Below are positions 10,305-59,080 of a DNA stretch of 64,000 nucleotides, piece after piece; the stretch's first letter is position 1, and every line of letters begins with the position of its first letter. A model generated the notes under the pieces. That model made no database searches and had not been told where the DNA came from. It saw only the letters and a list, made by a program, of their open reading frames with translations. The stretch is from Thermoclostridium stercorarium subsp. stercorarium DSM 8532 (GTDB lineage: Bacteria > Bacillota > Clostridia > DSM-8532), in NCBI RefSeq assembly GCF_000331995.1, contig NC_020134.1, forward strand, positions 558,001-622,000, read 5' to 3'. Made by a program: the position numbers and the translations under genes.

Positions 10305-10336
10305 GCCGCCTCAGAAAAGTCTGAGGTGGCTTTTTT
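10305..10336 (+). terminator. Rho-independent terminator after efp
   Basis: GCCGCCTCAGA, loop AAAG, TCTGAGGTGGC (one G-U pair), then six T. It separates efp from the spoIIIA operon. Confidence 0.9.
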
Positions 10337-14360: not shown

Positions 14361-14369
14361 GGGGTTTTT

Positions 14370-21778: not shown

Positions 21779-22470
21779 AGTTTTTCAGAGAAGCGGCTTT
21801 AACCGTTGTTTGCCTTGTACTGGGGATAATGGTTGCAATGCAGTACAGGAGCGTTAAAATAAACAATACAATGGCTGTGTATGAACAGCAACGTGTTAAT
21901 GATCTTATAACCGACCTTTTGCGCGAGCAGGAGAACAACAAGCAACTGCAGAAAAGAATAGATGAACTTCAAAAAGACCTGGAAAACCTTCGTACCGGGA
22001 CAAACAGTGAAAATGAAACAATACAGAAATTAAAAAAGGAGAACGAGAAGCTGGAAATTCTTGCAGGATTGAAGACGGTTAAGGGAAAAGGCTTAATAAT
22101 AACCCTTGAAAGCATGGATAATACCCCTATAGACGATTACAGCATACTGTCCGTTCTGAACGAATTAAGGGCAGCCGACGTTCAGGCTCTTTCGGTAAAT
22201 GATGAAAGGATTATTGCCACAAGCGAGGTAAGGCGGGTGGGAAGTTACATGGTGGTTAACGGCAGAAAGTTATTGCCGCCTTATGTTATAAAAGCCATTG
22301 CCGATCCGCAGAAACTTGAAAACTCCCTTACCGTTATGGCGGGTGTTGTTGATATGCTAAAGTATTACAATATAAAAGTTGACATCAAGAAAGATGATAA
22401 TATAATCATACCGGCAGTCCGCAATGACGGTACGGTGCTGCGCTATGACCTCCTGACTCCGGTTGACTGA
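21775..22470 (+). CDS. DUF881 family membrane-anchored coiled-coil protein, copy 2
   Basis: The product has 231 residues and the same layout as copy 1: signal-anchor (about 5-22), coiled coil (about 35-95) and DUF881 domain with KGLIITLESMD, LRAADVQALSVNDERI and PYVIKAIADP. The two copies are clear paralogues. Its ATG overlaps the TGA of copy 1. In other Firmicutes such genes sit beside divIB/ftsQ; that context is absent here. The transcript may end at the multi-helix structure at 22528-22620. Confidence 0.9.
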   Translation: MKFFREAALTVVCLVLGIMVAMQYRSVKINNTMAVYEQQRVNDLITDLLREQENNKQLQKRIDELQKDLENLRTGTNSENETIQKLKKENEKLEILAGLKTVKGKGLIITLESMDNTPIDDYSILSVLNELRAADVQALSVNDERIIATSEVRRVGSYMVVNGRKLLPPYVIKAIADPQKLENSLTVMAGVVDMLKYYNIKVDIKKDDNIIIPAVRNDGTVLRYDLLTPVD

Positions 22471-22527
22471 CAAATAGGCAGGTAATTATTTTATAAACAA
22501 ATCTATATATATATTAATAGGAATTTC

Positions 22528-22620
22528 AAAGAGCAATAAGAAAGGATTGTTGTTTTACAGACAAAATCCGTTCGGATTCTTAGGCAGCCTAAGGGCTGCG
22601 TAAGAAGATTGCTCTTTTTT
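22528..22620 (+). ncRNA. Candidate structured RNA: multi-helix element ending in a U-run
   Basis: An outer helix pairs AAAGAGCAAT (22528-22537) with ATTGCTCTTT (22608-22617), running into seven T. Inside, one hairpin is CTTA-G-GCAGCC-TAAG-GGCTGC-G-TAAG (22579-22604). A second is either GGATT...AATCC (22544-22569) or AATCCG-TT-CGGATT (22565-22578), which exclude each other. It could be the terminator of the DUF881 operon, a leader attenuator of the deacetylase gene that starts 17 bases later, or a small RNA. I cannot match it to a known family. Confidence 0.45.
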
Positions 22621-22636
22621 TATTGGGTAAAAAGGT

Positions 22637-23566
22637 ATGAACAGGAAAATTGCGCTTTTCATAATAACTCCGGTTATTTTAACGGTTTTACTGACAACAG
22701 CTTATGTATTTCAAGCAAATTCACTGAGGAAGGCAGGAAACAAGACTCTTTTTCAGCTAAGTTTCAGTGACCTTGATTTTGACAATGAAATCACCTCTCT
22801 GTCAGAAAACGGTTTACCTGTGTCCGCTGTTTATGAAGTTGCGGGCAGTGATGAATTTAACCGCGTCCGAAGCTGGGGGATTGTACGTGCCAAAAACAAT
22901 GAAACCCCGAAGGCCGATCCGGGAGCCCCCGAGCTTTTGAAAAAATATAACGGCATTTATATAGCCGACACGGATAAACCGGTGATTTACCTTACCTTCG
23001 ACGAGGGGTATGAGGCGGGGTATACCGCCGGTATCCTTGACTGTTTAAAAAAACACAATGTTAACGCAATTTTTTTCATAACCGGCCCATATCTTAACAA
23101 ACATGAAGACCTGGTCAGGAGAATGGTGGAAGAAGGACATGCGGTGGGAAACCATACGGTAAGTCATCCCAGCCTTCCCACCCTCAGTGATGAAAAAATA
23201 AAGAAAGAAGTGGCGGAGCTTGACAGGGTATTTTATGAAAAATTCAAAAAGCATATGATTTTCCTCAGGCCGCCGCGGGGCGAGTATAGTGAGCGATCCT
23301 TAAAAGTTACTTCGGAGATGGGATATATAAATGTGTTCTGGAGTTTTGCCTACAAGGATTGGGACAGGAACAGCCAGAAAGGCTGGGAGCACGCTTATAA
23401 CAATGTCATGTCCAACCTTCATAACGGTGCTATATTGCTTCTTCATGCCGTCTCCAGTGACAATGCCCAGGCCCTTGAACATATAATTACCGATGCGAGG
23501 AAAAAAGGGTATGAGTTCGGAGATGTATTTGAACTCATTAAAATAGCGCGGGGTGAAACCGAATGA
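22637..23566 (+). CDS. PdaA-like polysaccharide deacetylase
   Basis: The product has 309 residues, with an N-terminal signal-anchor (about 5-25) and a NodB homology domain (about 115-300). Motifs include IYLTFDEGYEAGY (TFDEG form typical of PdaA/CwlD partners), HAVGNHTVSHPSLP with the metal histidines, LRPPRGEYS and AILLLHAVS. PdaA de-N-acetylates muramic acid during muramic-delta-lactam formation in the spore cortex, acting on cwlD amidase products. The neighbours yqfC and yqfD are sporulation genes and the CwlD-like amidase is 4 kb upstream, supporting a cortex role. The end overlaps yqfC by four bases. The binding site AAAGG is close to the ATG, so translation may be modest or regulated. 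Confidence 0.88.
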   Translation: MNRKIALFIITPVILTVLLTTAYVFQANSLRKAGNKTLFQLSFSDLDFDNEITSLSENGLPVSAVYEVAGSDEFNRVRSWGIVRAKNNETPKADPGAPELLKKYNGIYIADTDKPVIYLTFDEGYEAGYTAGILDCLKKHNVNAIFFITGPYLNKHEDLVRRMVEEGHAVGNHTVSHPSLPTLSDEKIKKEVAELDRVFYEKFKKHMIFLRPPRGEYSERSLKVTSEMGYINVFWSFAYKDWDRNSQKGWEHAYNNVMSNLHNGAILLLHAVSSDNAQALEHIITDARKKGYEFGDVFELIKIARGETE

Positions 23567-23874
23567 AAAAAAGAAAAGGCGGTAAAACGGCAAAAAAAAA
23601 GAAAGAAGCCGATACCGTGAAGGAGAAAGTGGCAAGAATGCTGGAGATACCGGAGGAAGTTGTTTCCGACCGGCCAAAGGTAACGACGGTTGGCAGAAAG
23701 GAAGTTTTTATCGAGAATTACCGCGGCATTATTGAGTTTACAAGCAAAATTGTAAAAATTAATTCAAATTACGGGATTATTACAATTACAGGCAAAAATA
23801 TGAGAATCAGGGAGATCACGAACGAGGACATTATCATAACCGGTGATATAGACAATATAGATTATGTGGTTTAA
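23563..23874 (+). CDS. yqfC: Sporulation protein YqfC
   Basis: The 103-residue basic product starts with a Lys-rich stretch and has the YabP/YqfC family domain (IENYRGIIEFTSKIVKIN, GIITITGKNMRIREI). In B. subtilis yqfC is a mother-cell sigma-E gene of unknown mechanism and is always followed by yqfD, as here. Its ATG overlaps the stop of the deacetylase gene. Confidence 0.95.
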   Translation: MKKRKGGKTAKKKKEADTVKEKVARMLEIPEEVVSDRPKVTTVGRKEVFIENYRGIIEFTSKIVKINSNYGIITITGKNMRIREITNEDIIITGDIDNIDYVV

Positions 23875-23919: not shown

Positions 23920-25113
23920 ATGTTCCTTATTCGGTTATGGCATTATTTAAAAGGGTATGTTATTATTATTGTAAGCGGGCTTTCGGTTGAAAAGTTTATA
24001 AACATCTGCACCCGAAGGCAGATTTTGTTGTGGGATATTGAAAGACTCAGCCCGACCGAAGTCATTATGAAAATGAGCATACGGGGCTTTAAGAATGCGC
24101 GGTCTGCCGCCAGAAAGTCCCGGTGCCGGGTGCGGATTAAAGCCAAAAAAGGTTTACCGTATATTATATGGAGATATAAGAAAAGAAAGGGATTTGTTGC
24201 CGGGTTAATTGTTTTTGCTGTATTGATATACCTGATGACTTCGATTATCTGGTCGGTTGAAATTACCGGAAACTACAACCTGAGCAGAGAGACGTTGATG
24301 CAGCAGCTGAATGAAATGGGGATATTCAGGGGTGCAACAAAAAGATCGATAAACCCGAAACATGTGGCGGACAAACTGATGCTGAACAACAGGGGACTGG
24401 CCTGGGTGGGGGTTGAATTAAAGGGGACGAAACTTATTATATCCGTAAGGGAAGGCATTGAACCCCCGCGTGTTGTGCCTATGGACCAGCCCTGTAATGT
24501 GGTGGCGGAAAGAGACGGAATAGTTATTTCGGTCAGGGCTAAAAACGGTTTGGAAAAGGTTAAGGAAGGAGACACGGTAAAAAAAGGGCAGGTTCTTATT
24601 TCAGGAGTGATGGAAAGCAAAAATCCGGAAGCGGGCACAAGGTACGTTCATGCAATGGGTGAGGTTTTGGCCCGTACTTGGTACGAAGTGAAAGTGGATG
24701 TACCAGAGAAAAAAATTAACAGAATAAGGACGGGTCACGAGTGGAACAAATACAGTATGTATTTTCTTGATTTTAAAATCAGGCTTCCTTCGGGAAATAA
24801 CCCGTTTGAGTTATATGAAAAGGACATTGTGGATAAGGCTCCCGTTATAATGAACCATTTTAAGTTTCCGTTGGGCCTGATAATAGAAAAACATTACGAA
24901 CTGAAGGAGGAAGAGGAATTCCTTGATAAGGAGGAGGCAAGGAGACTGGCCGAAAAAACGGCAATGGATAAAGTATCCGAAATTTTGCCTGCGGACGCTG
25001 AAATAGTTGACCGGCAGATGGAGATTTTTACTTCCGACGGAAAGGAATATTTGCTGGTCACTGTTGAATGTACGGAAAATATAGCAATGCAACAGGAAAT
25101 TGGAGGGAATTAA
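23920..25113 (+). CDS. yqfD: Sporulation protein YqfD
   Basis: The product has 397 residues. It has a short cytoplasmic N-terminal domain (about 1-85), a membrane segment near 92-112 and a large exported domain, in the family resembling SpoIV-type proteins required for sporulation. Typical stretches are VEITGNYNLSRETLMQQL and GLAWVGVELKGTKLIISV. The ATG follows GGAGG. The stop TAA shares one base with the phoH start (TAATG), so translation is coupled. Confidence 0.94.
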   Translation: MFLIRLWHYLKGYVIIIVSGLSVEKFINICTRRQILLWDIERLSPTEVIMKMSIRGFKNARSAARKSRCRVRIKAKKGLPYIIWRYKKRKGFVAGLIVFAVLIYLMTSIIWSVEITGNYNLSRETLMQQLNEMGIFRGATKRSINPKHVADKLMLNNRGLAWVGVELKGTKLIISVREGIEPPRVVPMDQPCNVVAERDGIVISVRAKNGLEKVKEGDTVKKGQVLISGVMESKNPEAGTRYVHAMGEVLARTWYEVKVDVPEKKINRIRTGHEWNKYSMYFLDFKIRLPSGNNPFELYEKDIVDKAPVIMNHFKFPLGLIIEKHYELKEEEEFLDKEEARRLAEKTAMDKVSEILPADAEIVDRQMEIFTSDGKEYLLVTVECTENIAMQQEIGGN

Positions 25114-58820: not shown

Positions 58821-58839
58821 ATGGTTCAAAATAGGGTAA

Positions 58840-59080
58840 AAAGCAATGACCGGAACGAGTAAGCAGGAAGATCCTTACAGAGAGCAAAGGTCAGGTGGAA
58901 GCTTTGCAGGTTATTCCGGCTGAAAATCCTCCGGTAGCTTCAAGCTGAAACCGCAAGGGAGTAGGTGAGACGGCAGGGGCCGTTATCCCCCGCACAAGTG
59001 ACAGGCGTTTATGCCTGTAATTTGGGTGGTACCGCGTAGGTTTTTATGCCTTTCGTCCCATAAGGATGAAAGGTTTTTTT
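58840..59080 (+). promoter_or_regulatory. T-box riboswitch of ileS
   Basis: The T-box consensus GGGTGGTACCGCG is at 59024-59036; UGGU would pair with the ACCA end expected of an A-discriminator tRNA such as tRNA-Ile. Stem I elements AGAGAG and GGTGGAA are at about 58880-58900. The terminator is CCTTTCGTCC, CATAA, GGATGAAAGG followed by seven T (59049-59080). Uncharged tRNA would favour the antiterminator. I could not place the specifier codon with certainty. Confidence 0.95.

Follow-up and report, generated by a model that had tools for sequence, protein, structure and literature searches.

We analyzed a window of 64,000 nucleotides from Thermoclostridium stercorarium subsp. stercorarium DSM 8532, in which a folded element lies in front of pdaA, the gene for a delta-lactam-biosynthetic de-N-acetylase (Table 1). 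Close behind pdaA follow, in order, yqfC, yqfD, phoH and the gene for a 7TM-HD protein. Upstream of the element are two DUF881 genes, which end at 22470, about 145 bases before the run of seven T that closes the element. According to published studies, pdaA of C. difficile is a sigma-G gene and yqfC-yqfD a sigma-E operon (PMC3789822), and yqfCD of B. subtilis is under sigma-E control (PMC517825). There is also an RNA-seq study of what is probably T. stercorarium (PMC4102724), and the available part of its text contains no mention of sRNA, ncRNA, small RNA, riboswitch or intergenic.

Table 1. Features of the pdaA leader and the genes behind it (positions in the window)
Feature	Position	Strand	Basis
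Promoter-like block (GTAATTA ... TATATATA)	22482-22517	+	Directly upstream of the element; position kept in relatives
TAGGAAT, conserved leader start (probable transcription start region)	22518-22524	+	Sequence conservation
Outer helix P1, 5' strand (AAAGAGCAAT)	22528-22537	+	Fold, pair probabilities
Arm P2 of three-way junction (GAA.GGATT / AATCC.TTC)	22540-22573	+	Fold; 2 of 8 counted pairs changed on both sides in relatives
Arm P3 of three-way junction	22577-22606	+	Fold; 8 of 9 counted pairs changed on both sides in relatives
Outer helix P1, 3' strand (ATTGCTCTTT)	22608-22617	+	Fold
Seven-T run (terminator U-tract)	22615-22621	+	Sequence
pdaA, delta-lactam-biosynthetic de-N-acetylase	22637-23566	+	TIGR02884, 307.5 bits (cut-off 298); PF01522
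yqfC, sporulation gene	23563-23874	+	TIGR02856 above cut-off
yqfD, sporulation gene	23920-25113	+	TIGR02876 above cut-off

An earlier note on this DNA had described a 10-bp outer helix round two inner hairpins, running into seven T, and both the sequence and the fold bear this out. P1, with its 10 bp, encloses arms P2 and P3, and its last three pairs are made with T of the seven-T run. The segment 22518-22620 has a fold energy of -39.5 kcal/mol, compared with -19.85 kcal/mol (SD 3.05) for 200 shuffles, none of which folded as well (z = -6.44); the wider span 22500-22640 gave z = -5.44. A stable hairpin thus stands immediately before the U run, as looked for in an intrinsic terminator. The deacetylase gene is adjacent, as the same note had it, but the distance is 15 bases from the end of the T run to the ATG rather than the 17 given there. 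Some folds pair TAGGAA with the T run and bases beyond it; the columns that vary in L010 and L011 lose a pair in that arrangement, and we gave it no weight.

Elsewhere in the window, only three T-run hairpins are listed that stand no more than 20 bases from an open reading frame start on their own strand: at 10331, where the gene start judged by eye is about 100 bases further on, at 14365, where the stem has five pairs, and at 59041, within a T-box. This T-box leader (RF00230) lies at 58837-59063 on the forward strand and scores 124.2 bits against a threshold of 93.

Comparison with Rfam, proposed in the earlier note, placed the element in no Rfam 15 family: neither the window leader nor 10 related loci matched at the gathering threshold. 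Permissive matches in the window leader were far below threshold, and the only match in L052 was a chance-like one to SNORD15. The element does not look like a repeat or mobile element, as this is the only full copy in the genome, and the six other DNA matches are fragments of 14 to 31 bases with E values of 0.05 or worse. A covariance model run against 32 genomes of the family returned 12 matches with E values up to 1. Five had E values below 0.01, all at pdaA and one per genome, and two weaker ones (in G016 and G012) were also at pdaA; the three-way junction of G007 was missed in this search and found only in a smaller one. The other five matches (E = 0.27 to 0.84) lie elsewhere than pdaA. 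The one among these five that we read, at about 1501-1607 of L061 (C1:2915807-2915913 of the window's own genome; E = 0.3), shows a short resemblance (AGCAAT ... ATTGCTTTTTTT) and was taken for a chance match. In a limited literature collection, covering titles and the beginnings of abstracts, nothing concerned this leader.

We compared the leader across the family set of 32 genomes, 26 of which have a PdaA match at an E value of 1e-60 or better. Six genomes had no match at this cut-off and were left out (G005, G010, G011, G020, G029 and G030); in G010 and G029 pdaA is in fragments. Leaders could be read in all 26, on the pdaA contig in 25 and on a second contig in G012, and with the named record L048, which may overlap the genomes of the set, they make 27. 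In every one of the 27, pdaA is preceded by a hairpin with a run of five to seven T behind it. Its form varies: eight leaders from three genera have the three-way junction (four in g1, the genus of the window, three in g4 and one in g5), the three g6 leaders have a single long hairpin, and eleven g2 leaders, four g7 leaders and L048 have a short hairpin, with a loop of 3 to 9 bases in the 15 measured. The two strand anchors are separated by 17 to 22 bases in g2 and g7 and by up to 126 in L015. In all 11 leaders of g1, g4, g5 and g6, hereafter the close leaders, the T run is exactly seven and ends 12 to 16 bases before the start codon. The other 16 have a T run of five or six; those of g7 and several of g2 either have 47 to 132 bases between this run and the called start codon or have an uncertain start.

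The strength of the fold differs among these forms. Six other three-way-junction leaders (L015 not included) gave z scores of -2.8 to -4.7, with 3 of 200 shuffles folding as well for L057 and 1 of 200 for L018. Two short hairpins, those of L030 and L031, gave -3.1 and -2.3. The g6 folds were barely above chance (z = -1.3 to -1.9; 7 to 16 of 200 shuffles as good). Outside the family, the three loci compared closely have the same gene order (L033, L035 and L036), and the T runs near pdaA are preceded there by weak stems (6 to 9 pairs, with one or two G-C) or by none; L036 also has a 15-pair hairpin with six T further upstream.

Covariation, which the earlier note had suggested as a check, was found in the eight three-way-junction leaders. 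When these were aligned, 90.9% of cells pair, and 10 of 24 pairs are changed on both sides, compared with 4.8 (SD 1.3) in shuffles; none of 500 shuffles reached as many, and slid controls gave at most 5. Because this alignment was built to fit the structure, the count is biased towards it. Eight of the ten pairs are in P3 and two in P2. Further pair types showed no excess in the same leaders (15 compared with 14.8 in shuffles; 282 of 500 as high). The four g1 leaders alone gave weak covariation: 2 pairs compared with 0.6, a count reached by 34 of 500 shuffles, and a covariation score reached by 205 of 500. P1 is nearly invariant in the eight leaders: five of seven pairs never vary and none is changed on both sides, so covariation in P1 rests on the more distant plain hairpins. 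Its fourth pair is C-G in g1, g4 and g5, A-U in L014, and U-A or U-G in g2 and g7; in L012 it is broken (A and G), and in L016 P1 pairs in a shifted register. The U run had been read earlier as a sign of termination, and a structure before the deacetylase gene that is kept in relatives with compensatory changes lends support to that reading.

Upstream of the element, the motif G[GT][AC]ATT stands 34 to 36 bases ahead of TAGG in 22 of the 27 leaders, with an AT-rich, -10-like stretch between them (for L008 and L023 the spacing was measured by hand to the first TAGG). This block is missing or different in five leaders, L019 to L022 and L025, which are all four g7 leaders and L022. TAGG itself is here in 23 leaders, the 22 anchored ones and L031, where it lies three bases on, and is absent from the four g7 leaders; TAGGAAT is invariant in a six-leader alignment. 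We think that the block is a promoter, possibly of sigma-E type, but searches for sister sites in the window's own genome found none: the pattern CATWTT...ATANAAT...AATAGGA had no match, and ATATANNNTNNTAGGA matched only the pdaA leader site (the reversed control pattern matched 6 times). Most g2 and g7 leaders (e.g., L020, L025, L027 to L031 and L034) have a GCCTGTCC-like stretch in the spacer of the block, which was not seen in L022, L024 or L032. A perfect TTGACA-16-TATAAT sequence also occurs at 22379-22406 on the forward strand, inside the second DUF881 gene. The corresponding site matches at 11, 10 and 10 of 12 positions in L009, L010 and L015 but is not among the sites listed for L011, L013 and L018. 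The sequence lies within coding DNA and was set aside.

The earlier note had further proposed a switch in which AATCC (22565-22569) pairs exclusively with one of two partners, and had seen in this a route to control of the deacetylase gene. Two copies of GGATT, at 22544-22548 and 22574-22578, are indeed possible partners for the segment. However, the second pairing has a probability of 0.000 to 0.001 in an RNA that reaches the end of the T run, rising to 0.33 to 0.43 only in an RNA that ends before P3. Of the four g1 leaders, that of the window alone carries the second GGATT in full; L009 has GGTT, with four pairs possible, and L010 and L011 have neither. The position of the element makes control of pdaA plausible, but the exclusive pairing as its means finds no support. 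Forbidding the outer helix cost 5.6 to 10.7 kcal/mol in all seven leaders tested, and no alternative partner recurred across them. As long as the 3' strand of P1 is still to be made, the 5' strand of this helix is predicted to be unpaired in three leaders (L008, L010 and L011) and unpaired except at its last bases in three more (L013, L015 and L018); in L009 it pairs with the 5' strand of P3. Because the second pairing is rare, loss of the outer helix is costly and the 5' strand is mostly free, the terminator is, as modeled, the default fold, and no conserved RNA-only alternative is visible. Any regulation there may be would thus have to depend on a trans-acting factor, on the state that the polymerase is in, or on translation.

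A short open reading frame runs through the arms (22550-22603, forward strand), and its start is aligned in all four g1 leaders (TTG, GTG, TTG and ATG), five codons before Asn-Pro-Phe. A leader-peptide attenuator would call for a conserved short frame with regulatory codons; here the start is not kept in g4, g2 or g7, and the codons are not conserved. The frame is probably a by-product of arm P2.

Taken together, these observations suggest that the element is probably a conserved, lineage-specific intrinsic terminator in the pdaA leader, in the position of an attenuator, that limits transcription of pdaA-yqfC-yqfD-phoH. What can be read from the sequence is the fold and how it is conserved with compensatory changes, together with the T run and its position just before the gene in the 11 close leaders. 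In those close leaders, the 12 to 16 bases behind the T run leave no room for an ordinary promoter, which would place the terminator in the leader; transcription of pdaA from any start further upstream has to run through the hairpin. Polymerase would start at the promoter-like block and make an RNA of about 100 bases, in which arms P2 and P3 would fold first and the outer helix would then close at the T run. This closure would release a share of the polymerases, so that termination in the cell would be partial and only read-through transcripts would get to pdaA. The genes behind it would presumably form a single transcription unit, held at a low or conditional level.

Termination of this kind could also be regulated, with a trans factor (an RNA-binding protein, a modified polymerase or a ribosome on the leader open reading frame) permitting read-through at a stage of sporulation. 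The site, kept across the family between a promoter-like block and sporulation genes, is suggestive in this respect, as are the g1 start codons, which follow GAAAGG at the same place in all four leaders, so that the 5' strand of P1 would lie under a ribosome initiating there. On the other hand, no conserved antiterminator was found in the leaders, and the frame is not kept: the ATG of L018 is AAG in L057 (both g4), and the short hairpins of g2 and g7 have no room for it. Its first codons vary freely, the start lies near the ribosome-binding stretch, and Asn-Pro-Phe is already dictated by P2. We therefore regard this special case as tentative. A developmental form of it can also be imagined. 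In this family pdaA, which belongs to the sigma-G genes of C. difficile, stands in a row with yqfCD, genes under sigma-E there (sigma-G acting in the forespore, sigma-E in the mother cell); the terminator, passed at a single stage only or by a single polymerase form or factor, would set when or how much PdaA is made. We consider this doubtful.

The commonest cause of a hairpin with a T run is a terminator after a gene, and the element might simply end transcription of the DUF881 genes and lie near pdaA by chance. The distance from DUF881 would allow this, and most leaders have no other strong hairpin listed in the stretch from DUF881 to pdaA. The conserved promoter-like block, however, falls between DUF881 and the hairpin, and the short spacing from T run to start codon in all 11 close leaders also speaks against it. 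In addition, two of the three g6 leaders, L012 and L014, have a separate GC-rich hairpin of 9 to 11 bp (loop 42; GCCGGGCTT / AAGCCCGGC) with six T, which L016 lacks. It follows DUF881 and precedes the -10-like stretch, its end overlapping the -35-like part, and may be where the DUF881 transcript really stops. An ordinary DUF881 terminator is thus unlikely. It is likewise improbable that the element is an independent small RNA, about 100 bases long, with a promoter and terminator of its own: the block, the structured body and the U-tract would make a complete unit, but the body varies freely in sequence and length, and the five covariance-model matches below 0.01 all stand at pdaA, once per genome. 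A riboswitch or other ligand-binding leader, which a three-way junction followed by an expression-platform-like T run could recall, is very improbable, given that no loop or junction sequence is kept across genera, a plain hairpin replaces the arms in g2, g6 and g7, and neither an Rfam match nor a conserved alternative fold was found.

Should termination in the leader prove real, expression of a cortex-modifying enzyme and of the sporulation genes beside it would pass, in this bacterial family, an RNA checkpoint that is unrecorded in Rfam 15. As a constitutive attenuator only, it would be ordinary; as a developmental one, it would add to the synthesis of the spore cortex a control point at the RNA level that has not been described. 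The natural series at one site, from three-way junction to long hairpin to short hairpin, also offers a way to ask what terminator stems tolerate.

Among known systems, T-boxes are a class of leader RNA with a terminator, a likeness that the pdaA leader shares, although Rfam finds a T-box in the window only at the site given above. Many premature terminators and attenuators in 5' untranslated regions have been described in E. coli (PMC7815308). As in leader attenuators, a probable terminator has a promoter-like block before it and the first gene of a likely operon behind it; unlike in them, no conserved leader peptide, ligand pocket or antiterminator was found in the pdaA leader. The likeness to an intrinsic (Rho-independent) terminator is that the stem is followed directly by seven U. 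The pdaA leader terminator, which is not in Rfam 15, is nevertheless unusual: its stem encloses, in eight leaders, a three-way junction of about 60 to 120 bases instead of a short loop, and the element precedes a gene rather than following it.
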